64,000 nt of DNA from Myxococcus stipitatus (GTDB lineage: Bacteria > Myxococcota > Myxococcia > Myxococcales > Myxococcaceae), in contig NZ_CP102770.1 of the NCBI RefSeq assembly GCF_038561935.1, forward strand, positions 6,324,001 through 6,388,000, read 5' to 3'. The notes beneath the pieces were generated by a model. The model saw only the letters and a program-made list of their open reading frames with translations. It made no database searches and was not told the origin of the DNA. The first letter of the stretch is position 1; every line of letters begins with the position of its first letter. Of this stretch, positions 47,073-62,196 are shown in pieces. Made by a program: the position numbers and the translations under genes.

Positions 47073-48914
47073 GTGACTCCCCCGTCCGCTGTGGCTGGAG
47101 CACTCTTCGCAGTGTCCGTGGAGCAGGCCCTCCCCACCACGCTCCCCGAGCGGGCCATCGAAGTGGACGTGGGGGTGGCGCTGCCCATCGCCTTCGGTGG
47201 ATTGAGGAAGGTGCTGCGCGCTTGCGAGGACAGTGCCCCCAGCGTCGTGCGCGCCGTCGCGGATGCCCATCCGTCGGAGTGGAACCGGCTGTTTCCGGGC
47301 AGCATGCAAGGCGTCGCGGACCTGGGAGACCTGGCGCTCTCGCCCTCCGAGCGCAGGCTCCATCGTGAATCCGAGCAGACGTATTGGATTCTCAGCGTGG
47401 CCGCGCGGGCCATCGTCGAGACGCTGCGCTCCACCGGCCGCGCGCTGGTGCTGCATGGCGCGGGCGAGTGCGACCTGGTCAGCCTGCGCGGGATGATGCG
47501 CGCGGCGGAGTGGGCCCGGTTGGATGGGCTGACGGGCACGCTGCTGTTCACCGGCTGGCAGATGCGGCGGCCCCACTGCGCGACCGTCTTCGAGGCGCGG
47601 CGGCGCGAGTACCTGGACTCGCTGAGCAAGCGCCTGCGCGCGCCCACCGCGGAGGGCACGTGCACGCGCTCCTCGCGCGAGGTGGAGCCCGCCGTGGACC
47701 TGGAGGGGCGCTACCTGCGGCTGGTGGTGGACGCGGCGGAGGAGCGTGCGACGCGCGTGGCCGCCGCCATCCACGGCATCCGGAGCTGCTTCTTCACCAC
47801 CAACTACGAGGGCGCGCTGCTGTCCGCGGAGCAAGGGCTGCGGCTCCTGGGGGAGGACTCGGACGCGCGCCTCGCCTCGCGCGTGGCCCAGGCCTGGGAG
47901 TCGTTGGACACGGGCTTCGTCACGCCGGCCATCGAAATCGACCGGAGCAGCCTGGGCGACGTGGAGGAGCTCAAGGCGCTGTTCCACCGGAGCATCGGCG
48001 TGGTGCAGGTCTTCACCGGCTCGCACGACGAGGCCCTGGCGTCGTTCGCCCAGGGGCTGGAGTGCCGGGTCCCTCCGGAGATGCGGGCGCGGCTGCACAT
48101 GTTCCGCGCGCTGACGATGACCAAGCGCCTGGGCGAGCTGCCACAGGCCCGCGCCGAGGTGGCCGCGGGACTGGCCGCGCTGGCGCAAGGCACGGCGGAG
48201 GACCGCGCGCTCCAGGAGGGCTGGCTGCGCAACGTCGGCGCGCTCACGTGGTTCCTGGAGCGCAAGCTGGACAAGGCGCTGGTGGAGGAGAAGCTGGCCA
48301 TGCGCTGCGTGGGGGAGCTGCACGACGCCAGCGCCACGCACCTGAAGATCAACCTCATCTCCAACGCCAGCTATCTCCAGGAGTCGGCGCGGCAGTTCAC
48401 CGACGCCATCAACACCTGGCGGCGCTTCGAGGGCATCAGCGAGCGCTGGGGCGTCAACTTCTCCAAGCACCACCGCTACCGCCTCGCGGGGCTGGAGTTC
48501 GCGGCGGGCTCACGCGAGGACGCCATCGAGCACTTCCAGCAGGCCTACGCCAGCGCGGAGGCCCTGCGCGACTCCTTCCACCGGCAGGTCATCGCGGCGG
48601 AGCTGGGGCGCGTGTTCCTGGACGCGGGCCAGCGGTCGTCCGCCGTGGACTGGTTCGCGCGCGCCGAGCAACACGCGCACGACATCGGCGAGCCGTTGAT
48701 GGCCGCCGAGAGCCTGGCCGGAATGGGCCTCGCCGCCGAGCGGACCGACTGGGCGGAGCCCCTGCGCCGGGCCCTGGCCAGCTCCACGTGGCCCAAGCAG
48801 ACGCGGGCCCTGGTGGATGCCCTGGCCCGGGGTGACGCGGCGGCCATCCACGCGCTCATGCCGCGCCCCCGGACGAAGCTCAATCGCCCGTTCGACTCGG
48901 TCAGCCTGTACTAG
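47073..48914 (+). CDS. TPR-like helical repeat protein, 613 aa
   Basis: No specific family recognised. The N-terminal ~190 residues include a TLLFTGW strand and VVRAVADAHPSEW; the remainder is made of helical hairpins with TPR-like spacing (AIHGIRSCFFTTNYEGALLS, GAAGSREDAIEHF-type units, DAGQRSSAVDWFARAEQH). Start GTG 47073 is preceded by GAGTGAGG. Most likely a scaffold. Its stop shares the palindrome CTAG at 48911-48914 with the convergent gene on the other strand. It lies between signalling genes and the LanB operon, with no evident link to either. Confidence 0.75.
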   Translation: MTPPSAVAGALFAVSVEQALPTTLPERAIEVDVGVALPIAFGGLRKVLRACEDSAPSVVRAVADAHPSEWNRLFPGSMQGVADLGDLALSPSERRLHRESEQTYWILSVAARAIVETLRSTGRALVLHGAGECDLVSLRGMMRAAEWARLDGLTGTLLFTGWQMRRPHCATVFEARRREYLDSLSKRLRAPTAEGTCTRSSREVEPAVDLEGRYLRLVVDAAEERATRVAAAIHGIRSCFFTTNYEGALLSAEQGLRLLGEDSDARLASRVAQAWESLDTGFVTPAIEIDRSSLGDVEELKALFHRSIGVVQVFTGSHDEALASFAQGLECRVPPEMRARLHMFRALTMTKRLGELPQARAEVAAGLAALAQGTAEDRALQEGWLRNVGALTWFLERKLDKALVEEKLAMRCVGELHDASATHLKINLISNASYLQESARQFTDAINTWRRFEGISERWGVNFSKHHRYRLAGLEFAAGSREDAIEHFQQAYASAEALRDSFHRQVIAAELGRVFLDAGQRSSAVDWFARAEQHAHDIGEPLMAAESLAGMGLAAERTDWAEPLRRALASSTWPKQTRALVDALARGDAAAIHALMPRPRTKLNRPFDSVSLY

Positions 48915-49524: not shown

Positions 49525-50631
49525 CTATCCACCAACAGGCGGCCGTGACGCCATTCGCGCGGGCGAGAAGGGCGCGGCGAGGTCTCCCCTCCCCCACGCC
49601 ATCAGCTCCACCAGCGCCTGGGCCGCGTGGGCGCCGGTGAGGATGCCCTGCCCTCCCAGCCCCGTCGCGACGAAGGTGCGCCGCAGCCCCGGGAAGAGCC
49701 CCACGTAGGGACGGCCATCCGGCGTCACCGAGCGCAGCCCCGCCCACGCCCGCACGAAGCGCGCCTCGCGCAGACGCGGCGCCAGCTTCGCCACCGTGGC
49801 GCTCAAGTGCAGCAGGCCCGCGGGCGTCACGTTCTCCACGAAGCCCGCCTCCTCCTCGGTCGCGCCCACGACGATTTCGCCCGCGCGCCACGGCGCCAGG
49901 TACGTGGGGCCGGAGACGACTCGCGACAAGAACACGCCGGGCTCATGCACCACGAGCATCTGCCCCCGCACCGGCTTGAGCGGCAGCGCGGGCAAGCCCA
50001 CGAGCGTGGAGGACCACGGCCCCGCGCTCACGACGAGCTGGTCGGCGCGCAGCACCTCGCGGTCCGTGCGCACCTCGATGCCGTGCGGTGTCTCCTCCAC
50101 GGAGCGGGCGGACTCTCCCAGTCGCAAGCGGACACCCGCGCGCGCCGCGGCGCCCAGGAGCGCGTTGACGTAGCCCTCCGTGTCCACCATGTGGCCCCGC
50201 GCCGACTCGAAGGCGCCCAGCAGCGGCGTCCCCTCCAGCGCGGGCTCCAGCTCCACCAGCCGCGCGGCATCCACCCAGGTGCCCACCTCCTCCGGGAAGC
50301 CGCTCGCCTTGCGCGCCAGGGCCTCCTGGCCCTTCGCGTCCGCGACGATGCGGAGGATGCCCTGCCCTCGCCGCAGCAAGGCCCCTTCGGGCAGCGCGCC
50401 CAGGTCGTCGGTCAGGGCGGCCCTCCCCGCACGGGAGAACTCGAGCATCACCGGGTCGTCGTAGAGGCGGACCGAGGGGATGGCCACACCCGCCGCCGCA
50501 CGCGAGCCGCGCCCTCCCGGGTCCACCGCGTCCAGCACCGTGACGCGAGCCCCCGTCGCGGACAGGCGCCTCGCGGCGGACAGGCCCACGACTCCCGCTC
50601 CCAGGACCAGGACGTCCAAGCCGGTGCTCAT
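49525..50631 (-). CDS. FAD-dependent amine oxidase, glycine oxidase (ThiO)-like
   Basis: 368-aa flavoprotein of the DAO family. The dinucleotide-binding motif VLGAGVVGLSAARRL starts near residue 7, VTVLDA supplies the acidic end of the fold, and the C-terminal GLGGQGILTGAHAAQAL contacts FAD. WAGLRSVTPDGRPYVG is typical of glycine/D-amino-acid oxidases. Glycine oxidation for thiazole synthesis is the classic role, but no thi gene is near; as the last same-strand gene after the LanB unit (110 bp gap) it might also act on a peptide. ATG 50631 fits the fold but has no Shine-Dalgarno; TTG 50673 is an alternative. Confidence 0.8.
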   Translation of the reverse strand: MSTGLDVLVLGAGVVGLSAARRLSATGARVTVLDAVDPGGRGSRAAAGVAIPSVRLYDDPVMLEFSRAGRAALTDDLGALPEGALLRRGQGILRIVADAKGQEALARKASGFPEEVGTWVDAARLVELEPALEGTPLLGAFESARGHMVDTEGYVNALLGAAARAGVRLRLGESARSVEETPHGIEVRTDREVLRADQLVVSAGPWSSTLVGLPALPLKPVRGQMLVVHEPGVFLSRVVSGPTYLAPWRAGEIVVGATEEEAGFVENVTPAGLLHLSATVAKLAPRLREARFVRAWAGLRSVTPDGRPYVGLFPGLRRTFVATGLGGQGILTGAHAAQALVELMAWGRGDLAAPFSPARMASRPPVGG

Positions 50632-50741
50632 CGGAGGATTCACGAGGTCTGAAGTACCAGAGCGCCTCTCCAAAACGAAACCGGCGCCGCACTCCTCAGG
50701 GAAGCGCGGCGCCAGGTCTCCTCGAAGCGGAGGGCGTTCGA

Positions 50742-51125
50742 CTAGTTGATGAGCTTGCTCATCTGCTGCGCGGCGAGCTCCGCCACGTTGCCCATGCCCT
50801 GCGGCGTGAAGCCCTGCTTGTTCGCCTTGAACAGGTCGCCCAGGAGGTCGGTGACCTTGCCCTGGCCCGTGGCCATCTTCAGGCCCGCGTCCAGCAGCGA
50901 GTTGCCACCCGCGCCGTCCATCATTCCCTTGCCGGCGAACTTGCCCAGGATGTTCTTGAGCGCGCCACCGCCGGGGATGAGGTCCGTGACGGAGCTCAGC
51001 GCGGCCTTCAGGGGGTTCTCACCCTTCGCGAGCTTCTCCACGAAGCCCAGCGCCGCACCGGCGATGGGGTTGACGGCGGAGAGGATCTGCTTGCCGACAT
51101 TCAGGATTTTGCCGAGAAGTCCCAT
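50742..51125 (-). CDS. Small Gly/Ala-rich protein of unknown function, 127 aa
   Basis: ATG 51125 follows a perfect AGGAGG 8 nt upstream, so expression is likely strong. The chain is amphipathic and Gly/Ala/Leu-rich (LLGKILNVGKQILSAVNP, ALKNILGKFAGKG) with no cysteine, ending QMSKLIN. It resembles small secreted or pore-like peptides in composition only. It lies downstream of the two LanB-like genes on the same strand, 190 bp after the 147-aa gene, and is one of two candidate substrates of that operon; without Cys it cannot form lanthionines. Family unknown. Confidence 0.65.
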   Translation of the reverse strand: MGLLGKILNVGKQILSAVNPIAGAALGFVEKLAKGENPLKAALSSVTDLIPGGGALKNILGKFAGKGMMDGAGGNSLLDAGLKMATGQGKVTDLLGDLFKANKQGFTPQGMGNVAELAAQQMSKLIN

Positions 51126-51315: not shown

Positions 51316-51759
51316 TCAGCCCACCTTTTTCTCGGAATTACCAGGAGTGGAAGAGGAGGCCGGGTTCTTTCGTGACTCAGGGGCTCCCAGCTGGGCTGCG
51401 TCCGTGGCGAGGGCCGACTTGTAGCGCTCATCCCCCTGCCCCGCACTGAAGCCGTCCCGCTGGTGCGCGCGGCTGATGGCCACCTCGCCCGTGCGGAGCT
51501 TCTCGATGTGGTTCGCGATTTCGTCCACGGTGGGGGCGTCGGGGTACTCGGCCTTGAGCTCCTCGTCGGGGGTGATGGTCAGCTGGGCCGGCTTGTCGGG
51601 GTGCTGCGCGTAGTCGAGGATCTTCTCGACATAGGCCGCCACATCCACCTTCAGGAGCCGGGCCTGCTCCTTCACATCGGGGTTCTCCAGCAGCTCCGCG
51701 CGCAGCTCCGCGACGGGACGCCGCAGTTTCTTGGGCTCGGCCGTGTTCTCTCCGGACAT
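51316..51759 (-). CDS. Small acidic protein downstream of LanB-like gene, 147 aa
   Basis: ATG 51759 has GGAG within 10 nt upstream and lies 91 bp after the LanB-like stop on the same strand. The product is helical and charged (RPVAELRAELLENPDVKEQ, PDAPTVDEIANHIEKLRTG) with a Ser/Thr/Pro-rich tail (PASSSTPGNSEKK). It contains no cysteine. It might be a substrate, leader-carrying or docking protein for the LanB-like pair, but nothing proves that. The 190 bp that follow (51126-51315) contain no further gene. Confidence 0.6.
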   Translation of the reverse strand: MSGENTAEPKKLRRPVAELRAELLENPDVKEQARLLKVDVAAYVEKILDYAQHPDKPAQLTITPDEELKAEYPDAPTVDEIANHIEKLRTGEVAISRAHQRDGFSAGQGDERYKSALATDAAQLGAPESRKNPASSSTPGNSEKKVG

Positions 51760-51850: not shown

Positions 51851-54175
51851 TCAAAGCGACTTCCCTTGGAAAGCCTGAGGGGAAGCCGCGGTCCAGCGGG
51901 TGAGCTGCATGCGCAGCTCGCAGGTGTAGCGGCCTCGAGAATCCCGGAGCCAGAGCTGCTCGGGAGCCGGGTACATCTCCTCCACGGACAGGCGCTCGGC
52001 CTCGCGAGACAGGTGGGAGAGCAGGTCCAGCGCGAAGGGGCTCGACGTGTCGATGAGGTAGGGCTTGCGCTCCTTCGAGCTGCGCATGAAGACGAACCGA
52101 GGCCAGCCTCGCTCCTGCCGCTCGCGCTGCGCGGCGAGGAACAGGTCGAACCCCGAGGCCTTCGCCAGTCGCGCCGACGACAGCTCCCAGCGCTCACGTT
52201 GGTACACCGCGCCGCCTACGCTCAGCCGAGGCAGGTGACTCCCCTTCGTGCGCAGCGGGGCATGCAGCACCTGGGGATGCGCCAACGCCGCGAACGGCGG
52301 ATAGGACGAGAAGTCGTCCAGCGGCAGGTACAGGTGGAGCCGCTCGCCGTGGAGATCCACCAGCTCCGGGCCCTGGGGCGTGGGCACCACCTTCACGTCC
52401 GAGGGCGTGAGGGCCCCCTCCTCGACGTCGAGCACGTCCGACACCGAGTAGACGAGCCGCCGGCCCGGAAACACGTAGAAGCCCTTGTTGCGGCGACGGA
52501 TGGACAGGCCGACGAGGCCTCGCGCCGCGGGGTCCGCCTCCAGCCACCGCGAGGCCACCGCCGAGTAGCGCTCTCGCGACGGGAAGAAGACGCTCAGCCA
52601 GCTTCGCAGCAGCAGGTGGTGGTGCACACGCGCCAGCATCACCTCGAAGCCCGCGCCGTCCCGCTTCGCGGCGAGGCAGACATCGGGCAGCGCGTACCGG
52701 CCTCCCGGCGTGGACGCGCCCAGGAAATCCACCGGCAAGGCGCGGTGACGTGCACCGTCCTCGTCCAGGAGCACGGGTGGCACGGGGGAGAAGCGGCTTC
52801 CGGAGACCTGGTCGGGCCGCAGGCGCACCGCGTAGTCCAGCAAGCCGAGCGGCCTCTCGTCCGCGCCCAGCGCGTCGCGCACCTGCTCTCGGAAGCCTCG
52901 CTGGACCTTCTCGCCATAGGCGGCCGACAGCTCCAGGGGGCCCGTCAGCGCGGCCTCGAGTTCCTCGGTGAAGCGGCGCCCGAAGCGAAGACGGAATGGA
53001 GAGCTGGCCTCCTCGTAGAGGATGAGCCGGTCCGCGTACACCTGCCCGTCACCGCGCCGCGCGGGCTTGCCCGTGGCTTGCGTGAAGTGGGACTCCAGCT
53101 CCAGCAACAGCACCCGGCGGCGCGACAGGTCGGCCGACTCGAACCCGGCCTTCAGCCTCGCGAGCGTGTCCAGTTTCTCCAACCACCGCGTTCGCGCCTC
53201 CAGCTCCGAAGGCAGCGCGGCCACGGCGTCGCGCACGCTCTCGAACGTGGTGAAGTCATTGGGGCGGAATGGCAGGCCCCAGAGCAGCAGCGCGCCCTTC
53301 ACCAGCGGCAGCGCGCTTCGCTCCACGTCCTCCACCGCGCTCCCCAGCACCTTCGCCGCCGCGGCGGGCGTGGGATGGTCCTTCAGCACGGCGAGGAGCC
53401 GCTCGGCGGACTCGGACAGGGGCACATCCAGCTTCAGCGCTTCGCACGCGGCGCGGCCGGGCGTCACGGTGAAGAGGGGATTGAGCCGCAGTGGCAGGTG
53501 CGCCCGAACCGAGCGCTCACGCCCCACCGCGCGCGCCAGCTCCGTCACCGCCCAGAAGGAGAAGAAGGTGCGTCGGCGCGTGTCGCCGCTGGGCACGGTG
53601 CGCACGTCGAAGCCGTCCTCGTCCGTGCGCTCGCCGTAGGAGATGGGGCCGAAGAAGCTGGTGGTCTCGTTCTTCGCGCAGAAGCGTTGCAGGTACGTGT
53701 AGACCTGCCGCTCCACCCTGCGCGCGTCGGACGTGTCCTTGCGCTCGTCTCCGCGCAGGTAGCGGGCCCAGACGTTGTCGAACATCGCCGGACTGGAGAG
53801 GAACACGGCCTCCTGGATGGCGGGGTCCGCCGCGCGCTCGCGCAACCGGGGGCGGAGGGCGGCCCGCTCCTGGGCGTAGCGTTCCTGGAGGGACTCGCGC
53901 CTCGCGAGGTAGCGCTCCAGCGACTCACGAAGGGAGGGGTCATGCTTGGGCTTCAGCGTGGGACGAAGCCCACGCTCCAGCGCATCCTGGAGTGCCTGGC
54001 TCCCGGAGTCATCGCCTTGCGCACGCACCACCTCCACCAGCGCGCGCTCGTCCGCGAGCAACTGCCTCGCCTCCTCCACCACCGCGTCGGACACCCCGAG
54101 CGACTCCAGCCAATCGAAGGGGAAGCCCGCGTGCCGAAGCACGAATACATCCCCCAGGGTCCAGCGTTCGCTCAT
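51851..54175 (-). CDS. Lantibiotic dehydratase-like (LanB N-terminal type) protein 1
   Basis: 774-aa member of the LanB dehydratase family. It starts with VLRHAGFPFDWLESLG, has the family core YLQRFCAKNETTSFFGP (~residues 160-176), where classical LanB has a TPFGLF-type motif, and ends with PEQLWLRDSRGRYTCELR. Full LanB proteins (~1000 aa) carry a second, SpaB_C elimination domain; none is visible here, so this is the short form. Short LanBs either work with a separate elimination protein or act as PEARLs that add an amino acid from aminoacyl-tRNA to a peptide C-terminus. ATG 54175 overlaps the upstream stop by 4 bp. The paralogue lies two genes upstream. Confidence 0.75.
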   Translation of the reverse strand: MSERWTLGDVFVLRHAGFPFDWLESLGVSDAVVEEARQLLADERALVEVVRAQGDDSGSQALQDALERGLRPTLKPKHDPSLRESLERYLARRESLQERYAQERAALRPRLRERAADPAIQEAVFLSSPAMFDNVWARYLRGDERKDTSDARRVERQVYTYLQRFCAKNETTSFFGPISYGERTDEDGFDVRTVPSGDTRRRTFFSFWAVTELARAVGRERSVRAHLPLRLNPLFTVTPGRAACEALKLDVPLSESAERLLAVLKDHPTPAAAAKVLGSAVEDVERSALPLVKGALLLWGLPFRPNDFTTFESVRDAVAALPSELEARTRWLEKLDTLARLKAGFESADLSRRRVLLLELESHFTQATGKPARRGDGQVYADRLILYEEASSPFRLRFGRRFTEELEAALTGPLELSAAYGEKVQRGFREQVRDALGADERPLGLLDYAVRLRPDQVSGSRFSPVPPVLLDEDGARHRALPVDFLGASTPGGRYALPDVCLAAKRDGAGFEVMLARVHHHLLLRSWLSVFFPSRERYSAVASRWLEADPAARGLVGLSIRRRNKGFYVFPGRRLVYSVSDVLDVEEGALTPSDVKVVPTPQGPELVDLHGERLHLYLPLDDFSSYPPFAALAHPQVLHAPLRTKGSHLPRLSVGGAVYQRERWELSSARLAKASGFDLFLAAQRERQERGWPRFVFMRSSKERKPYLIDTSSPFALDLLSHLSREAERLSVEEMYPAPEQLWLRDSRGRYTCELRMQLTRWTAASPQAFQGKSL

Positions 54176-55713
54176 CCGTGAGTCCTCTCCAGGATGGACT
54201 TCGACACCAGCGTCTCCGCCCACTTCGCGCGACGCGCTTCGGGCACCATCGACAACACCTCGGCCAAAGGCGCGGGCACGGTCCGCCGGGACAGCTCGGG
54301 CGCCATCCGCGCATCCATCGCCAGCACGACACCCGTGCGGAGATTGGCCGCGTACCAGGACGGCGTGCTCGCCCCTTCAAGAGAGGCAGGGAGCCGCACC
54401 ACCGCGCAGTCCGAGTCCAGGCGAAGGTGCGTCGCGGGCGCCCCCGCTCGCGGAGAGCGGAGTGCCAGGAAGGCCCCCGCGACCCGCCCCGGACTCAGCG
54501 GCGCTCGACTCGACAGACGCCCTGTGAGCGAGGTGAGCACCTCTTGCAACCGTGATGCGGGAATCGTCCCGGGCCGCTCGATGGGGACCGAGCGACGGAG
54601 GTCGCGGTCCACCGGAGGCATTCCCGGCACACCCCACCTGTGCGCGACATCGATGTTCGATGCCATGCGCTCCACCGACAGGTGGAACGGGCGCACTCCC
54701 GCCAGCAGGTCGAAGAACGCGGCACCCTCGTCCTCGAGCAGGGTCAGCGTGGAGTCCAGGACCGGCACATCCATCCCAGGCGCCCCCACCCACCATTCGG
54801 CGACGACGCGCACTCCCGCCGCGCGCAGACGCTCGAAGCCGCGTTGAAGGAGCGTCCTGGGAATCAACTGGTGGTCGATGTCCACCACGTGGTCCGAGGT
54901 GATGGCGCAGAACTCCACCACCGCCGTGTGACAGCCGCTCTCCACGAGCAGGTCGGGGGTCCCCAGTGCGTCGAGCGACACGTGCCCCGCCCACCGTGCG
55001 CCGCCCGTGAGGGTTCGCACGTGCTCCAGCCTGGAGGCCCCCTGTGCATCGGGAAGCCAGACGACGTCATCACGGCTCGGCTCCGCATCCAGCGGCACGA
55101 CTCGCCAGCGCAGCGGAGGAACAGGCTCCGGAAAGGTGGCGCGCTGGAACGAGGGCATTCGCGCCAGCACGTCGCGATGGGTCTCCGCGAAGGGCCCCGC
55201 CACCTCGAGCGCCACATCGGCCGGGCACACCTGGGCCAGCGCCACGGCGGCGGGAAGCTGGAGGTCTCGCACCAACCACAGTCGCACGCGCTCGGCCCCC
55301 GCGACTCGCGTGGCGAAGGTGGCCACTTCCCGGGCATACGGCGTGGAGAGGGTCGCGGCGCGCTCGACATCCGCGCCGCGCTCCGTGGTGCCCGTCTCCA
55401 GCTCCACGTCATCCAATCGCAGCCGGACACCGTGCGATGGACCCGAGAGGGCCGTCAGCACCGCGCCCAGGGCACGCAGCTCCGCGATGGGGCCTCGCGC
55501 TCGAATGCCCTGCGCGACACGCAGCAGGAGCAGCTCGCGCATCGACCGCGGCGTTGGTGGCGCGCCCTCGCGAGCCTGGGCCTCGACCTCGAGGGCTTCA
55601 GCGGAGAAGACCCGGCGGGTGAAGCCTCTCGCCAGGTCCAGGGGGTGCCACCCCTCGGGTGTTTCGGGAACCAGCGTCACATCCCGGTGCGGAGGCAACA
55701 CCCACCACTTCAT
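54172..55713 (-). CDS. Unrecognised 513-aa protein sandwiched between two LanB-like genes
   Basis: Not recognised. ATG 55713 follows GAGGAGGAAGC, a strong ribosome site, and the gene overlaps both LanB-like neighbours by ATGA, so the three products are probably made in equal amounts and may form a complex. Alternating strands and helices in the middle (ADVALEVAGPF, HVSLDALGTPDLLVE, LRAAGVRVVAEWWVGAPG) look like a TIM barrel, and the order of elements recalls radical-SAM enzymes, but the CxxxCxxC cluster is absent. It could be a degenerate, non-redox relative or an unrelated barrel. The C-terminus includes NIDVAHRWGVPG and SSRAPLSPGRVAGA. Confidence 0.6.
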   Translation of the reverse strand: MKWWVLPPHRDVTLVPETPEGWHPLDLARGFTRRVFSAEALEVEAQAREGAPPTPRSMRELLLLRVAQGIRARGPIAELRALGAVLTALSGPSHGVRLRLDDVELETGTTERGADVERAATLSTPYAREVATFATRVAGAERVRLWLVRDLQLPAAVALAQVCPADVALEVAGPFAETHRDVLARMPSFQRATFPEPVPPLRWRVVPLDAEPSRDDVVWLPDAQGASRLEHVRTLTGGARWAGHVSLDALGTPDLLVESGCHTAVVEFCAITSDHVVDIDHQLIPRTLLQRGFERLRAAGVRVVAEWWVGAPGMDVPVLDSTLTLLEDEGAAFFDLLAGVRPFHLSVERMASNIDVAHRWGVPGMPPVDRDLRRSVPIERPGTIPASRLQEVLTSLTGRLSSRAPLSPGRVAGAFLALRSPRAGAPATHLRLDSDCAVVRLPASLEGASTPSWYAANLRTGVVLAMDARMAPELSRRTVPAPLAEVLSMVPEARRAKWAETLVSKSILERTHG

Positions 55714-58058
55714 GCTTCCTCCTCGGGAGAAGGGAGCGGCTCCGGACGAGGGCCCATCGAGGGACCGCCCCACAACAGCGTGCAGCGAAGCTCCACGGTG
55801 TGACGGCCTTGGGGCCCCCGGAGCCAGAGCTGCTCCGGCCCTGGCAACATCTCCGAGAGGAGCACGTCTTCCTTCTGCTCCAGCAGGTTGAGGAAGACGC
55901 GCAGCAAGGGCGGGCTGCGCACATCCACGAGCACGGGCTTCCGCTCGCCCTTGAACTTCGCGAAGACACAGGTGGGGAGGCCTCGCGCGTCCCACAGGCT
56001 CACCGCGACCCGCAGCCTCGCTCGGTCATCCTTGCATGCCAGCAACGCTTCACGCGCCGCCGCGTCCAGCCGCCACTGCTCACGCTGCACCACCACTCCG
56101 CCCAGCGTCAGCCGAGGCGTGTGGTCCCCCATCGACACCCGCAGGGAGCGGATGCGAGGGAGCGAGAAGGCGGTGTGCACCGCGCTGTCCAGTTCGCCGT
56201 TGTAGAGGCACACCTCGGAGCCCAGCCGCTTCGACACCAGCCGCGCGCTCTTGCCGTCGCTCTCCACGAAGAGGTCGTCCAACGGGATTCGCCAGGCGGC
56301 GGCACGCGCGCTCACGCCCCCCAGCTCCACCACCGGCCCCGGAAACTCCGAAGGCAGCAGGCCCGTGCGCCGCGACGGGAGCACCGTCACCAAAGGCACC
56401 GCGCGAGGCAGCACGCCCATCGCACGCACCATCGCGCTCTCCACCTTCGCGCGCGAGGGATGGAACTGGAGCGCCCAGCCCCACACAAGCGCCGTGTCGT
56501 GGATGTCCCCCATCACCAGCGTGTACTCACCCCGCCCCCACGCCTCCACGTCGCGCGCGCCCACGAGCAGGTCCACCGACGTGATGAGCGGCAGGGTCCG
56601 CGAGGTGTCCCAGGCCGGGAGCTCCACACTCCCCAGCTCCACCGAGGACGCCCCCGCATCGGAAATCCCCATCGCGAGCAGCTCCGCCACGGACGTGTCC
56701 AACGGCACCGGCACATCGGCGGTGGTCGCCGCGACCTTCCAGAAAGGAACCGTGCGTGCGCCCACCCGCTGGGCCACCGCCACACGCGCGGCCTCCCGCG
56801 TGCGCCACCCGGCCTCCGACATCCAGGCCAGCGCTGGCGCCAGGCGCGTCTCCAGCTCGCGCGCACGCTCGCCGCGCACCTCGATGCGGAGGTCTCCGCC
56901 GCACTCCTCTCGCAGCGCGAGCCGGTCCTGGTAGAAGTTGTGCGACTCCGACGCGGGGCCACGCTCCGTCGGAGGCACCACGCCCCACAGCTCCTTCACC
57001 CGCCGCGCGCACGCGTCCTGGAGCGCCATCTTCCCGCTCGCGTCCGCCGCGCCGTAGCGGGCCATCAACGCCAGCACCGAGCTCAAGCCCTCGACATGAC
57101 GCCGAGCCCCGGCGCCCGGCAGCGCGGCGACCCGCTCCGCCAGGTCGTCCACCGGGTGGTGCACGGCGGTCGGCACTTCCAACTGGTGCGTGAGCAGAGC
57201 CTTGTCGCAGCCCAGCCGCAGCGCTTCTCGCGCGAGCCCTGGCGCCACCCCCAGCGACGAGGCCAGCGCCGACAGCGTGCGCGTCCCATCCGCCAGCTCC
57301 ACCAGCCGAGGCAGCAGCTCCTCCGCGCTCACCGGCACGGGGCCCGTCTTCCGCGCGGGCATCTCCGCGAACGCCTTCCTTCGCGGCACCAGCCACGAGG
57401 CGATGTCCGGGTCGAACGCAATCGCGCGAGCCACGCCCTGCACCCACCACGACGCCGCGAAGGTGTTGCGGCCCACCAGCGTCTCGGGACCCGACCACTT
57501 CAGCGACACGCCGGTGGGCGCCTCGGGGTCCACCTGGCCGTAGTTGATGGGGCCGAAGAAGCCCATCGTCTCGTTCTTCGCGCACAGCCGCTGGAGGTAG
57601 CTCGCCACCTGCCTGCGCACCCGGGAGCCGCCTCGGCCCGCGAGCAGGTCCTTGGCCACGGGGGGACTGGAGCTGGCCACCGCCTCCAGGAAGCGCGGCT
57701 CACGGCACAGCGTGGCGAGCTGGGACTCCACCGCCGGAAGCTCTCGCTCCAGCGCCGCCGCGAGGCCCGCCTCCGCCTCCTGCGCCGCCGCCGCGCGCGT
57801 GTTCCATTCGGCGAAGCGCTCCGGGGACTCCATCCCCTCGGTGTCGACGGGGCGCCCCGCCTTGAGCGCGGCGAGGAGCTCGCGCGGGGGACGCCTCACC
57901 CGAGGCCCCTGCTCCCTCAAGGCCACGAGCCCGCGCCGCTCCGACTCGAGGCGACGCGCCCACTCCGCCGACTCCGGGCAGCCCAGCCGCTCCAGCCAGT
58001 CGAACGGGAACCCCGTCGTTCGCACGACGAGGTGGGGGAAAAGGGTCCAGCCCTTCAT
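55710..58058 (-). CDS. Lantibiotic dehydratase-like (LanB N-terminal type) protein 2
   Basis: 782-aa paralogue of the protein at 51851-54175 and first gene of the putative RiPP operon. It shares the opening TTGFPFDWLERLG, the core YLQRLCAKNETMGFFGP (~residue 160) and the closing PEQLWLRGPQGRHTVELR. No SpaB_C elimination domain is visible. Having two divergent copies suggests either different substrates or a heterodimer, as seen for paired short LanBs. The start ATG 58058 comes only 17 bp after a strong hairpin that ends the upstream kinase transcript, leaving little room for a promoter; the ribosome site is weak. Confidence 0.75.
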   Translation of the reverse strand: MKGWTLFPHLVVRTTGFPFDWLERLGCPESAEWARRLESERRGLVALREQGPRVRRPPRELLAALKAGRPVDTEGMESPERFAEWNTRAAAAQEAEAGLAAALERELPAVESQLATLCREPRFLEAVASSSPPVAKDLLAGRGGSRVRRQVASYLQRLCAKNETMGFFGPINYGQVDPEAPTGVSLKWSGPETLVGRNTFAASWWVQGVARAIAFDPDIASWLVPRRKAFAEMPARKTGPVPVSAEELLPRLVELADGTRTLSALASSLGVAPGLAREALRLGCDKALLTHQLEVPTAVHHPVDDLAERVAALPGAGARRHVEGLSSVLALMARYGAADASGKMALQDACARRVKELWGVVPPTERGPASESHNFYQDRLALREECGGDLRIEVRGERARELETRLAPALAWMSEAGWRTREAARVAVAQRVGARTVPFWKVAATTADVPVPLDTSVAELLAMGISDAGASSVELGSVELPAWDTSRTLPLITSVDLLVGARDVEAWGRGEYTLVMGDIHDTALVWGWALQFHPSRAKVESAMVRAMGVLPRAVPLVTVLPSRRTGLLPSEFPGPVVELGGVSARAAAWRIPLDDLFVESDGKSARLVSKRLGSEVCLYNGELDSAVHTAFSLPRIRSLRVSMGDHTPRLTLGGVVVQREQWRLDAAAREALLACKDDRARLRVAVSLWDARGLPTCVFAKFKGERKPVLVDVRSPPLLRVFLNLLEQKEDVLLSEMLPGPEQLWLRGPQGRHTVELRCTLLWGGPSMGPRPEPLPSPEEEA

Positions 58059-58121: not shown

Positions 58122-61100
58122 TTACCGAACCATCACGACAATCTCCTGCCCCGGCACCGCCAGCACCCAGTGCCTGCTCGCGGCTCCCGCACAGGCGACC
58201 TCCACCTCCAGCTCCCGACCGGCCTCGATGGCGGCTCTCGTCAGCGGCGTGCGCTGCGGCAGCGGGCTTCCGCCCACCTTGACCTCACAGCCCGGCATGC
58301 TGCTCGACACGCTCAGCGTGCCGCGAGTCCCGGGCTGAGGCATGGCGTCCGCGAGCGTGCGCACGTCAATCCCCTCACGCTGCTGCGTGGTGCCGAACCG
58401 GCGCAGCCGCCCGTTCACCGCCGTGGAGATGAGCAGCGGGCCCGACGGCGACACCTCCAGGGCCGACGTGCCGGGCGCCATGCGCACGCCACCGACGTAC
58501 ACATGCTCGCCGTCCTCCAGGTTGACGAACGGAGAGCCCGCGCCGCGCAGCATCACCACGGCCACCACCGCCACCACCATCAACACGCCCGCGCCCAGCG
58601 CCGCCCACTTCATCGGCGAGCCCTTGTCCGGCGAGGGGGCGACGGGGGCCTCGGACACGGGGGCCGGAGGACGCGGCGTCGGCACCGGGCTCGGATGGGC
58701 GGGACCGGAGGCTCTCGGAGCCGGAGCCTGTCGAGGGGGCGCCCCCAGGGCCTGCGAGTCCGACGGAGACGGGCGCGGCGCGGCCGTGAGCCCGGGCTGC
58801 CCCGCGCTCGAGGGACGCGGCGCCGGGGCCGGGACCGGGCGAGCCTCGGCCATGTGCGGAGGAAGCCCGCCACCCGACACCACCAGGACCTCGGTCCGTT
58901 CCACGGCGTCCAGGTCTGCCGCGGCGGGAGGCATCGGCGCGCGCGGAGGCACGGGCGCGGGGCGAGGAGCCGCCGGGGGCTGCTGCGGAGGGCGGGCCGC
59001 GACGGGCGCGGGGGGCTGCTGAGGACGCGGCGCCGCCACCGGCGGAGGCGTCATCGGACGGGAGGCCGCCGGCGCGGGACGCGGGGCACTCCCCGCCACG
59101 GGAGGCGCGGACAGGCTCCCGCTGCCCGTCGGGCGAGGTGTCCCGCCAATGATGGAGCCCTTGTTGGGCGTCTTCCCATCGACGGGGGCCGCCAGCTCGC
59201 CGCTGCCCGTCCCCGTGGGCATGGGCTTGGAGTGCTCACCCGTCCCGGAGCTGGAGGACGGCGCGTACTCCACCAGCCGGTCGCCGAGCGTGTCCTTGAA
59301 GAACTGCGCCACCGCGGCGGGAGACGAGTTCAGGCGGTGGTGCGCCATCACCGCTTCAATCTCCTCGCGCATCGCCGCGGCGGACGGCGTGCGGCGCGCA
59401 GGGTCCTTCACCAGGGCGCGGAGGATGAGGTCGGAGACGTCCTGCGGGACGTGCGGCCGCAGCTGCGAAGGCACGGGCGCGGGCTCGCGGACGATGGCGT
59501 TGAGCGTGGCCGCGTCATGCTCGCGGCGGAACGGAAGCTGCCCGGTGAGCAGCTCGAAGAGGACGACGCCCAGCGCCCAGACGTCGTTGCGCGCATCCAG
59601 CGCGCGGCCCGACGCGGCCTCCGGGGAGATGTACGAAATCTTCCCCTTCAGCACCCCCGCCTGTGTGTTGTCCTCGCCGGCGACCTTGGCGATGCCGAAG
59701 TCGCTCAGCTTGATGGCGCCGTCCAGCGAGATGAGGACGTTGTGGGGGCTGACGTCGCGGTGCACCACCGGGTGCGACGTGCCCGCGGGGTCCACGTAGC
59801 TGTGCGCGTAGTGCAGGCCCGCCGCCACCTCCGCGACGATGCGCAGCGCGTGCTCCAGCGGCAGCCCCAGGCCCTTGCGGCGCAGCTCGACGACCAGCCG
59901 CTTCAGGTCCGGCCCGCGCACGTACTCCATCAGGATGTACGCCACGCCGTCGGACACGCCCACGTCGAAGGTCTGCACGACGTTGGGGTGCGTCAGCCGC
60001 GCGTTGGCCCGCGCTTCCGCGAACAACATGTCCACGAACTCGGGGTTCTGCGCGAACTGCGGCAGGACCTTCTTCATCACCACGAACTTCTCGAAGCCCT
60101 TCACGCCCACCTGCTTGGCGAGGAAGACCTCCGCCATGCCGCCCTGCCCCAGGCGCTTGATGATGGTGAGCTTGGTGTTGCCCAGCGAGTTGGAGAGGTC
60201 GGTGGGCGAGCCCTTGTTCGCCTGCGGGTCGACGTTCGCGGAGCCGAACAGGTACTGGCTGAGCGCGCGCGCCTCCAGCGCCTCCAGGTCCTCCAGCGGC
60301 CGGTCCGTCAGCTGCACGCGCGCGAGGAAGCCCTGGAACTGCGGCATGTGCGGCACCTGCGCGGTGCCACCGCAGATGGGGCACTCCCGGGTCATGCCCG
60401 CCTGCTGCGACCGCAGCCGCGCCTGGTATTCGGCCGCCAGGATGCGCTGGTGGCTCACCTGGCCGCAGTTGCGGCACTCACACGGCAGCCACAGCGTGGA
60501 CAGCCGCGCGGGGAGCTGCTTCGCCGAGCGAGACAGCACCGCGAGCGCCGGCGGGGGCACCCGGCACAGCACCACCTGGGCGCCCTGCGCGGCCGTGTCC
60601 AGCACCTGCTCCAGCTTCGCCAGCGCCTCCGGCTCCACCTTGCTCACGTGGCTGAAGTCGAAGCCGACGCGGCCCTCCAACCCGGAGGCCAGGCGGCGCA
60701 CGTTGAGGTCGCCCTTCAGCGCGCTGGCCAGGGTGACGAAGGTGATGTCGTCCTGGACGATCTTCAGGTGCTGCGGGAGCTCCGGCTGCTCCGTGGGCAT
60801 GCTCGCGCGCAGGTAGCGCATCACCACGGGGTCCACGGTGCCGAACTGCTGGCGGCGGCCGTAGTCGAAGAACTCCTCCGGCTGGTCCGCGAACTCCAGC
60901 GGGTTGGAGCACACCGGGCAGCGGTGCGCCGGCGCGAGCCCCTCGGCGAGGACCTGTGCGTCGTCGACCAGGTTCACCACCCGCATCCGGTCTTCGCTGC
61001 ACGTGGGGCAGGAGTACGGGGCCAGGACGGAGAGCACCCGGGCCACGCCGGCGAAGCCCTCCACCATGTTGAGCTGGTCCACCACGACCGGCGGCGCGTG

Positions 61101-61352
61101 GACCACGTAGAGGCCCAGCGCTCCGGGGGGCAGCTTCGCCGCGAACTCAATCCACCGGCGGACACCGAAGGAGCTGATGCGGTCCACCCGCCCCAGGTCG
61201 ACGACCAGGAGCCCGTTGAGCTCTGGCGTGGCCGACGTCAGCGGGAAGGTCTCGTCGATGACACCCGCAATCCGTACGTGGGTGATGGTACCCACACGGA
61301 GCCGGCTGATGATGGCGTTGGAACCCTGGCTATCCACCGACCCTGACCTCAT
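58122..61352 (-). CDS. Ser/Thr protein kinase with two STAS-like and two zinc-ribbon modules
   Basis: 1076-aa membrane kinase. N-terminus: STAS-like domain one (~20-110), zinc pair CPTC (~115) and CPVC (~141); STAS-like domain two (~195-280), zinc pair CECRNC (~291) and CPIC (~323). The kinase (~394-690) has GQGGMAEVF, Lys in VMKKV, HRDVSPHNVL (~530), DFGIAK (~551) and SPEAASG. A ~200-residue Pro/Ala linker, a transmembrane helix (~917, WAALGAGVLMVVAVVAVVML) and a PEGA-like periplasmic tail follow. It overlaps the HATPase-like gene by 23 bp. The STAS/HATPase combination suggests partner switching. The ATG at 61352 has no Shine-Dalgarno and probably relies on coupling. Confidence 0.9.
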   Translation of the reverse strand: MRSGSVDSQGSNAIISRLRVGTITHVRIAGVIDETFPLTSATPELNGLLVVDLGRVDRISSFGVRRWIEFAAKLPPGALGLYVVHAPPVVVDQLNMVEGFAGVARVLSVLAPYSCPTCSEDRMRVVNLVDDAQVLAEGLAPAHRCPVCSNPLEFADQPEEFFDYGRRQQFGTVDPVVMRYLRASMPTEQPELPQHLKIVQDDITFVTLASALKGDLNVRRLASGLEGRVGFDFSHVSKVEPEALAKLEQVLDTAAQGAQVVLCRVPPPALAVLSRSAKQLPARLSTLWLPCECRNCGQVSHQRILAAEYQARLRSQQAGMTRECPICGGTAQVPHMPQFQGFLARVQLTDRPLEDLEALEARALSQYLFGSANVDPQANKGSPTDLSNSLGNTKLTIIKRLGQGGMAEVFLAKQVGVKGFEKFVVMKKVLPQFAQNPEFVDMLFAEARANARLTHPNVVQTFDVGVSDGVAYILMEYVRGPDLKRLVVELRRKGLGLPLEHALRIVAEVAAGLHYAHSYVDPAGTSHPVVHRDVSPHNVLISLDGAIKLSDFGIAKVAGEDNTQAGVLKGKISYISPEAASGRALDARNDVWALGVVLFELLTGQLPFRREHDAATLNAIVREPAPVPSQLRPHVPQDVSDLILRALVKDPARRTPSAAAMREEIEAVMAHHRLNSSPAAVAQFFKDTLGDRLVEYAPSSSSGTGEHSKPMPTGTGSGELAAPVDGKTPNKGSIIGGTPRPTGSGSLSAPPVAGSAPRPAPAASRPMTPPPVAAPRPQQPPAPVAARPPQQPPAAPRPAPVPPRAPMPPAAADLDAVERTEVLVVSGGGLPPHMAEARPVPAPAPRPSSAGQPGLTAAPRPSPSDSQALGAPPRQAPAPRASGPAHPSPVPTPRPPAPVSEAPVAPSPDKGSPMKWAALGAGVLMVVAVVAVVMLRGAGSPFVNLEDGEHVYVGGVRMAPGTSALEVSPSGPLLISTAVNGRLRRFGTTQQREGIDVRTLADAMPQPGTRGTLSVSSSMPGCEVKVGGSPLPQRTPLTRAAIEAGRELEVEVACAGAASRHWVLAVPGQEIVVMVR

Positions 61353-62196
61353 GCAAACAGAACATCAGTGACTTGGGCTGGGCCGCGCGCCGCCGCGCGT
61401 CTCCCAGGTCCACCACGCAAACGACTCGCGACTCCCGCCCCACCACCACCCTCACCGCCACCGCGTCGCAGTGCTCGAGGATGCGCCGCAACCCCAGGCC
61501 GGCGCCGCCGCCCGACGCGTCCACCTTCACCTTCCGCCCCCAGCCCTCCAGCGCCCGGGCAAAAGGCTCCGGACGCAGTCCCCCGAAACGGTCCACGACC
61601 TCCAGCCATATCCGTCCGTCTTCCACCGCGTAGCGCAGCTCGCACGCGTCCTCGGGCGCCACCTCGCGCACCTCCGTGCGTCGGTGTGCATAACGAGGAG
61701 CGCCCTGCGCATCCACTGGCGCATCCAGCAGCGCGTTGACGGCGATTTCGTGGGCGACATCCGCCGCCAGCCCCGCGGCGGCCCGGCTGCCCTCCGAGGA
61801 CTCGACCGCCATCCCCACCGCCGTGGCCGCCTGCTGGACATCCACCACGCCACGCAGCGGGTGGCCCACCACCTCCGCCCGCTCCGGCAGCATGGAGCCC
61901 TCGCGGAGCAGCGAGCCCAACAGCTGCGCCTCCCACTGGGAGGGGCCTCCATCCCGCTCGCGCGTCGCCAGCAGCAGCGCGGGCGGCTCGCGGCGAAGCC
62001 ACTGCGCGTGCTCGGGCTTGAGCACGCCGTCGAAGAGCACCACGTCCCTGGGAGTCGCCGGAGACGCGGAGGCCTCCGGGAGCCCCACCATGCCCTGCGC
62101 CAACAGGGGCGCCACCTGCTCCAGGGACGCCGCGGGCAGGGAGGCATCGGCAATCAGCAGGAGGCCCCCGGCCTCCAAGTGGGACGCGGTGCTCAA
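61330..62196 (-). CDS. HATPase-domain protein, anti-sigma/regulator-like
   Basis: 288-aa protein with a C-terminal GHKL ATPase domain: N-box AHEIAVNALLDAP (~residues 147-159), G1-like VVDRFGGLRP and G2-like GGGAGLGLRRILEH. Its N-terminal ~110 residues resemble a receiver-like fold (VVLFDGVLKPEHAQW) with unclear acidic pocket. It overlaps the STAS-kinase gene by 23 bp, so the two are co-translated. HATPase proteins of this kind bind or phosphorylate STAS proteins; the partner may be the STAS domains of the kinase. The start is TTG 62196, near a weak AGG. No ATG fits. Confidence 0.7.
   Translation of the reverse strand: MSTASHLEAGGLLLIADASLPAASLEQVAPLLAQGMVGLPEASASPATPRDVVLFDGVLKPEHAQWLRREPPALLLATRERDGGPSQWEAQLLGSLLREGSMLPERAEVVGHPLRGVVDVQQAATAVGMAVESSEGSRAAAGLAADVAHEIAVNALLDAPVDAQGAPRYAHRRTEVREVAPEDACELRYAVEDGRIWLEVVDRFGGLRPEPFARALEGWGRKVKVDASGGGAGLGLRRILEHCDAVAVRVVVGRESRVVCVVDLGDARRRAAQPKSLMFCLHEVRVGG

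Follow-up and report, generated by a model that had tools for sequence, protein, structure and literature searches.

The DNA that we analyzed, hereafter the window, is a stretch of 64,000 nucleotides from the Myxococcus stipitatus chromosome (C1:6324001-6388000), and its features of interest are collected in Table 1. As the initial annotation had proposed, two short LanB-like paralogues, A and C, flank a third gene, B, and the three genes are joined by ATGA overlaps, which we observed directly at the A/B junction (GCATGAAG) and at the B/C junction (GGATGAGC). Of 33 relatives, 30 retain the A/B overlap and all 33 retain the B/C overlap. Since 34 of 195 Myxococcota genomes carry the A-B-C cassette in synteny and its dN/dS values are low (0.12-0.13 for A and C; ∼0.3 for B), its arrangement is not a product of chance.

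Table 1. Features discussed in the text (positions in the window, except for the last two rows, which give chromosome positions in the source genome)
Feature	Position	Strand	Length	Description
Gene A	55710..58058	-	782 aa	short LanB-like protein, inferred PEARL (peptide aminoacyl-tRNA ligase) 1
Gene B	54172..55713	-	513 aa	predicted cobalamin-radical-SAM fold without cluster cysteines; between A and C
Gene C	51851..54175	-	774 aa	short LanB-like protein, inferred PEARL 2
Gene D	51316..51759	-	147 aa	no family match; Myxococcus-type loci only
Gene E	50742..51125	-	127 aa	no Pfam/NCBIfam match; Myxococcus-type loci only
ThiO-like oxidase (DAO)	49525..50631	-		FAD glycine-oxidase family protein, inferred BhaG/Amm14 counterpart
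TPR protein	47073..48914	+	613 aa	inferred BhaC1/AmmC1-like flavoenzyme
PLALA scaffold peptide	G000:C1:2242211-2242396		61 aa	NF033737 match, ends EKLDEIEEIDFLLEEIESKIAPLALA
Second locus (L124)	G000:C1:2232500-2252400			peptide, Rieske oxygenase, cytochrome c, 647-aa protein, unknown protein, TldD, TldE

While the coupling of the proposed three-gene operon stood, its extent did not, as D, E, and the gene for a ThiO-like FAD oxidase follow C on the same strand. Genes D and E share one distribution (24 of the 34 A-B-C loci, the window counted), which excludes the loci of Archangium and Citreicoccus, and are probably not core. Both are small, conserved proteins of Myxococcus-type loci encoded between C and the oxidase, E being hydrophobic and glycine-rich and D charged; as candidate scaffold peptides they were rejected, given their nonconserved C-termini and their absence from loci that keep A-B-C. 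The FAD oxidase matches PF01266 (E=2e-57), and its best NCBIfam model is ThiO (E=3e-52, below the equivalog cut-off); its likely start is the ATG at 50631, the longest ORF beginning at 50673, and in Archangium-type loci its gene directly follows C. The TPR protein has a TPR_12 match barely above the cut-off, and its identity as a BhaC1/AmmC1-like flavoenzyme is inferred, without a direct comparison to BhaC1. Upstream of A, on the same strand and syntenic in relatives, lie genes that we named by reading their sequences, namely a STAS-like and Ser/Thr-kinase-like gene (58122-61352) and an RsbW-like gene (61330-62196), whose products are possible regulators.

Genes A and C as putative peptide aminoacyl-tRNA ligases

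A and C match Lant_dehydr_N (PF04738) alone (E=9e-17 and 7e-18, respectively), with a match that runs to the end of the domain, and never Lant_dehydr_C; likewise, all 20 members of the gene C family match PF04738 only. The absence of an elimination domain from both proteins, claimed from the first reading of the sequence, was thereby upheld, as were their CAKNETxxFFGP motif (CAKNETMGFFGP in A and CAKNETTSFFGP in C) and their shared ends, where their identity (31% over the whole length) is strongest. The two are the sole PF04738 genes in the 10.17-Mb source genome, and a profile search of that whole genome found no elimination domain (PF14028). This search works, because the same model matches 47 other Myxococcota genomes; 15 genomes with A-B-C, the source genome counted, have no PF14028 at all.

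PEARLs are LanB-like proteins that lack the elimination domain and use ATP and aminoacyl-tRNA (PMC11962472). A structure model of A, used for fold class only because of its moderate confidence (pLDDT 72), gave TbtB (6ec7/6ec8), which serves as glutamylation protein in thiomuracin biosynthesis, as the best Foldseek matches (E=7e-20), and the closest solved structures, namely TbtB, MibB, GodF, and NisB, are glutamylation proteins and full LanBs. A and C resemble the split glutamylation proteins TbtB and GodF in fold, length, and the lack of an elimination domain; TbtB and GodF, however, need an elimination partner, do not use ATP, and are missing the PEARL arginine of the E-x-R motif.

The residue spacing in A and C agrees with that of BhaBCTrp, in which R34, R197/Q201/Y205/R208, D558, R715, F755, E813, and R815 have been given roles in binding the peptide, CCA, and ATP (PMC11962472). 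The CCA-binding helix (R-x3-Q-x3-Y-x2-R) is directly observed as R146/Q150/Y154/R157 in A and R153/Q157/Y161/R164 in C, invariant within each family, and the further A/C equivalents are R13/R14, the adenine-contacting R659/R660 and F699/F696, and E756-x-R758/E753-x-R755. An invariant aspartate (D496/D498) lies at approximately the right spacing for the Mg2+/ATP aspartate (TglB Asp542), an assignment made by spacing only. TglB Asp542 and Arg803 are kept in PEARLs and not in split LanBs (PMC11117183). Consistent with this division, E-x-R (TglB Glu801-x-Arg803) is present in 40 of 40 PEARL-like sequences, whereas a profile alignment with 20 canonical LanBs (E=7e-40) placed a hydrophobic residue at the position of the PEARL arginine, the canonical proteins having lost both this arginine and the ERKP features. 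In our tree, A and C form two separate clades, each uniting Myxococcota and Actinomycetota with 100/100 support, and the canonical LanBs, except for one long-branch row, occupy their own 100/100 branch. Sequence evidence hence supports A and C as putative PEARLs; their enzyme activities are untested.

Gene B between the two putative ligases

B has no Pfam match, and sequence searches of the PDB and Pfam gave nothing significant; a fragment match to TIGR04479 reached E=0.006-0.013. Its AlphaFold model (pLDDT 87) matched AprD4 in Foldseek (E=1e-4) and, in VIA-align, TsrM, AprD4, and CysS (Z of 12.4, 11.8, and 11.1, respectively), with which residues 1-417 of B share a predicted fold. Unlike cobalamin-dependent radical SAM enzymes, B contains no CxxxCxxC or similar triplet, and therefore no [4Fe-4S]/SAM chemistry is expected. 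This cysteine triplet is absent from B and all of 44 homologues (45 sequences from two phyla), which led us to reject B as an active radical SAM enzyme. Its invariant polar residues are H9, D11, R34, D101, E111, D115, R118, H179, E306, and R410, and its position between the two ligases is kept in both phyla. B, translationally coupled to both ligases, is probably in a complex with A and C. It is most likely a structural or regulatory partner of the ligases, although it could still be a new enzyme that uses a different cofactor or needs none.

The loss of the ancestral cofactor site in B would also fit an arrangement in which catalysis is left to A or C alone, the other serving, along with B, as a structural partner; in the region expected for the second Mg2+, moreover, A reads GDIHD and C reads ARVHH. 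Yet the residues invariant across the 40 PEARL-like sequences are all present in both proteins, dN/dS is equally low for A and C, and the corresponding TglB residue, Glu564, is reported to be nonessential (PMC11117183), so that we regard a single catalytic ligase as unlikely.

Solo copies of B without A or C also occur (L067:8817-10532 and L068:8993-10729), one genome (G062) carrying such a copy besides its A-B-C and another (G102) carrying the solo copy alone. A link of the L067 and L068 copies to other RiPP enzymes was rejected, as their neighbors are ordinary, unrelated genes. In one relative, B is extended to 625 aa by a long repeated insertion (ATPAPERATNT-like; L055:6357-8234).

A distant scaffold peptide and its co-distribution with A-B-C

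A pattern scan of the source genome for the conserved end of PEARL scaffold peptides returned six sites, one of which is a stop-terminated peptide ending in EKLDEIEEIDFLLEEIESKIAPLALA, the genome's only small ORF to end in APLALA. This peptide directly matches the NCBIfam family NF033737 ("ammosamide/lymphostin RiPP family protein") at 55.4 bits (cut-off, 30); its C-terminal end is invariant, and it has no Ser/Thr/Cys core. Known PEARL scaffolds have a conserved PLALA end, as in BhaA-Ala-Trp (DIDFDLEEIEDKVAPLALAW) and AmmA*-Trp (IEFDLDEVESKIAPLALAW) (PMC9850906). The peptide gene lies ∼4.1 Mb from the window, and no PLALA-type ORF was found in the window or flanking A-B-C in relatives.

At this second locus, the gene for a Rieske/VanA-type oxygenase overlaps the peptide stop codon, and among the relatives examined the gene order is conserved wherever contigs extend far enough, with G109 as the exception. 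TldD and TldE near the peptide find their best match in a Kitasatospora pair (36% and 38% identity). The initial annotation had reported no LanC, protease, or transporter, which holds for the A-B-C neighborhood; TldD/TldE are, however, a likely protease at the second locus. No quinone reductase was recognizable at either of these two myxobacterial loci. An outer-membrane-type protein, the cytochrome c, and the 647-aa protein, the last with weak MtrC/OmcA-like matches, flank the peptide (L124:8088-14992, ∼2.24 Mb) and are conserved in relatives, the cytochrome c being missing from Archangium-type peptide loci.

Across the 195 Myxococcota genomes, we observed the NF033737 peptide in exactly 34, the same 34 that carry A-B-C, and in none elsewhere; the TPR protein has an identical distribution, and the Rieske oxygenase is present in 33 of the 34, G109 being the exception. 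The only same-genus genomes without A-B-C (G114 and G130) also lack the peptide, as does G102 with its solo B. The exact match of the distributions has p ∼1e-38, a figure computed per single match with ancestry ignored and inflated by shared descent; this problem does not affect the paired absences inside the genus or the linkage in actinobacteria (below). In G109, the peptide gene lies immediately before the TPR gene, which ties the two loci together. The carriers include a strain of Myxococcus xanthus (G137).

A tblastn search of a plasmid collection found homologues of C and B side by side on a Kitasatospora plasmid, in a 13-gene operon encoding a TPR protein, a ligase, A, B, C, four further LanB-like proteins, an FMN reductase, TldD, TldE, and a DAO. 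A, B, and C overlap there too, and an unannotated 40-aa ORF upstream of the operon ends in ENKIAPLALA. Identities to this cluster are 39% for C, 46% for the DAO, and 36% for the TPR protein (to the first gene of the cluster). When a species-genome collection was scanned for the C-terminus of the peptide, 21 loci emerged, each from Myxococcota or actinobacteria, and all eight of the actinobacterial genomes also carry B. In actinobacteria, the peptide adjoins the TPR gene in the order peptide-TPR-(B0)-A-B-C, usually with TldD/E and a ThiO-like DAO in one cluster, and some clusters include a quinone reductase. The scan did not return Bacillus halodurans, because BhaA itself is without the last alanine (PMC9850906). 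Of the seven PEARL-like proteins that the Kitasatospora operon (L117:11953-35826) encodes, four carry no annotation beyond "hypothetical."

These distributions also bear on the substrate. A PEARL that acts on a non-ribosomal product is known from the sna pathway (PMC11212132), and the two genes immediately after C, D and E, show conservation within Myxococcus; A and C might then be PEARLs that act on D, E, or a small molecule, with the PLALA peptide belonging to another system. Against this, the A-B-C loci of Archangium and Citreicoccus have neither D nor E, whose C-termini are also not conserved, the peptide and A-B-C coincide over 195 genomes and share one cluster in actinobacteria, and the source genome has no other PF04738 gene to use the peptide; we give this reading little weight. 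The notion that A and C are glutamylation halves of a split lanthipeptide or thiopeptide dehydratase with an elimination protein in trans, which the initial annotation had allowed as a new split dehydratase and which draws on the nearest solved structures (TbtB, MibB, GodF, and NisB), is largely refuted and very improbable, as PF14028 is absent from the source genome and 14 other A-B-C genomes, canonical LanBs have lost the E-x-R and ERKP features of A and C and, bar the one long-branch row, branch apart from them at 100/100, and the associated peptide belongs to the ammosamide/lymphostin family, with an invariant C-terminus and no Ser/Thr/Cys core. The PEARL-like pathway suggested at the outset is instead favored by the lack of PF14028 in the genome, the invariant PEARL residues, the ammosamide/lymphostin-family peptide in the same genome, and the actinobacterial clusters with A-B-C. 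Grouping of A and C with full LanBs, together with a SpaB_C protein encoded nearby, would have refuted it, and neither was found.

A proposed two-locus pathway

Although no enzyme has been assayed, we conclude with considerable confidence that A and C act as PEARLs in a pathway of the ammosamide/lymphostin type ("pearlin"), whose genes are divided between two loci on the chromosome. Charged tRNAs are very probably used to extend the end of a carrier peptide encoded ∼4 Mb away, building a quinone-like small molecule.

In the amm and bha pathways, a PEARL adds Trp to the PLALA end, the TPR flavoenzyme BhaC1/AmmC1 trihydroxylates the indole, a second PEARL adds Gly to the resulting quinone, and a glycine oxidase releases glyoxylate; in amm, TldD/E free the product (PMC11117183, PMC12424672, PMC9850906). 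The gene set in Myxococcus is observed, and every reaction, the amino acids added, and the product are inferred, with a step order that rests on analogy with these characterized pathways. By this analogy, (i) one ligase, A or C, would add Trp to the PLALA end of the trans-encoded peptide; (ii) the TPR protein would trihydroxylate the indole to give a hydroxyquinone; (iii) the other ligase would add Gly to the quinone; (iv) the ThiO-like oxidase (BhaG/Amm14-like) would release glyoxylate and leave an aminoquinone; and (v) TldD/TldE would cut the product from the scaffold, with the Rieske oxygenase encoded beside the peptide perhaps performing one further oxidation. Judged by the same precedents, two ligases, the TPR protein, the ThiO-like oxidase, and TldD/E would be the minimum for such a scheme. 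The Trp and Gly specificities of A and C are a guess, as neither was aligned directly to the characterized BhaB, AmmB, or TglB. Two counterpoints are the lack of a recognizable quinone reductase at either locus and the requirement of the ammosamide TldD/E for a C-terminal Arg from a fourth ligase, which is absent here.

The Myxococcus set thus shares with amm and bha a PLALA-ending scaffold, short LanB-like ligases, a ThiO-like glycine oxidase, a TPR protein, and, with amm, TldD/TldE. Unlike in amm and bha, its genes lie in two loci 4.1 Mb apart, with two ligases versus four in amm; its peptide sits near a Rieske oxygenase and c-type cytochromes, and no halogenase or methyltransferase was seen. 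It also has a cluster-less radical-SAM-like protein between the ligases, a feature whose presence in amm and bha could not be compared. A short LanB-like ligase likewise extends a scaffold peptide in the case of TglB, from the 3-thiaglutamate pathway. That pathway has Cys-specific chemistry and a peptide different from that of Myxococcus and, to our knowledge, neither a TPR protein nor a glycine oxidase.

Neither the peptide family, nor the ligase class, nor the chemistry is itself new, and our literature search, which did not cover subscription journals, found no relevant paper on myxobacterial PEARLs or pearlins. As far as that search reached, what is new is the layout over two loci, the occurrence across most of Myxococcus, the Rieske/cytochrome surroundings, and the conserved A-B-C block containing a cluster-less protein of radical-SAM fold. 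tRNA-dependent assembly of small molecules on a carrier peptide has so far been worked out in only a few clusters, and the same logic here would make a conserved two-locus pathway across Myxococcus, including the genetic model M. xanthus. Because biosynthetic genes are usually mined as a single block, a scaffold peptide encoded 4 Mb away from its ligases would escape notice. The two ligases form a minimal set beside the four of amm. The conserved A-B-C block brings in a third type of protein, a radical-SAM fold that no longer has its cofactor site, and the part that this protein plays in peptide extension from tRNA is now open to testing. Speculatively, and with low expectation, the product might be a lineage-wide, redox-active aminoquinone that serves the cell itself instead of acting as an antibiotic; the outer-membrane-type protein, the cytochrome c, and the MtrC-like protein would then handle it, and B would be a repurposed, cluster-less cobalamin-radical-SAM protein that has taken on a new function, for example as a switch or channel linking the two tRNA-dependent ligases.

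Other short LanBs came to light in myxobacteria. Single KNET-type proteins of a different family (L102, L103, L104, L105, and L108) lie near a conserved PLP-enzyme-like gene (FINCSYLGLD; named by reading) and further conserved unknowns, in what looks like a separate PEARL-type system. Another short KNET-type LanB (L111:6726-9062) resides in an apparent polyketide/non-ribosomal peptide cluster in Myxococcus, an arrangement that recalls the sna pathway.
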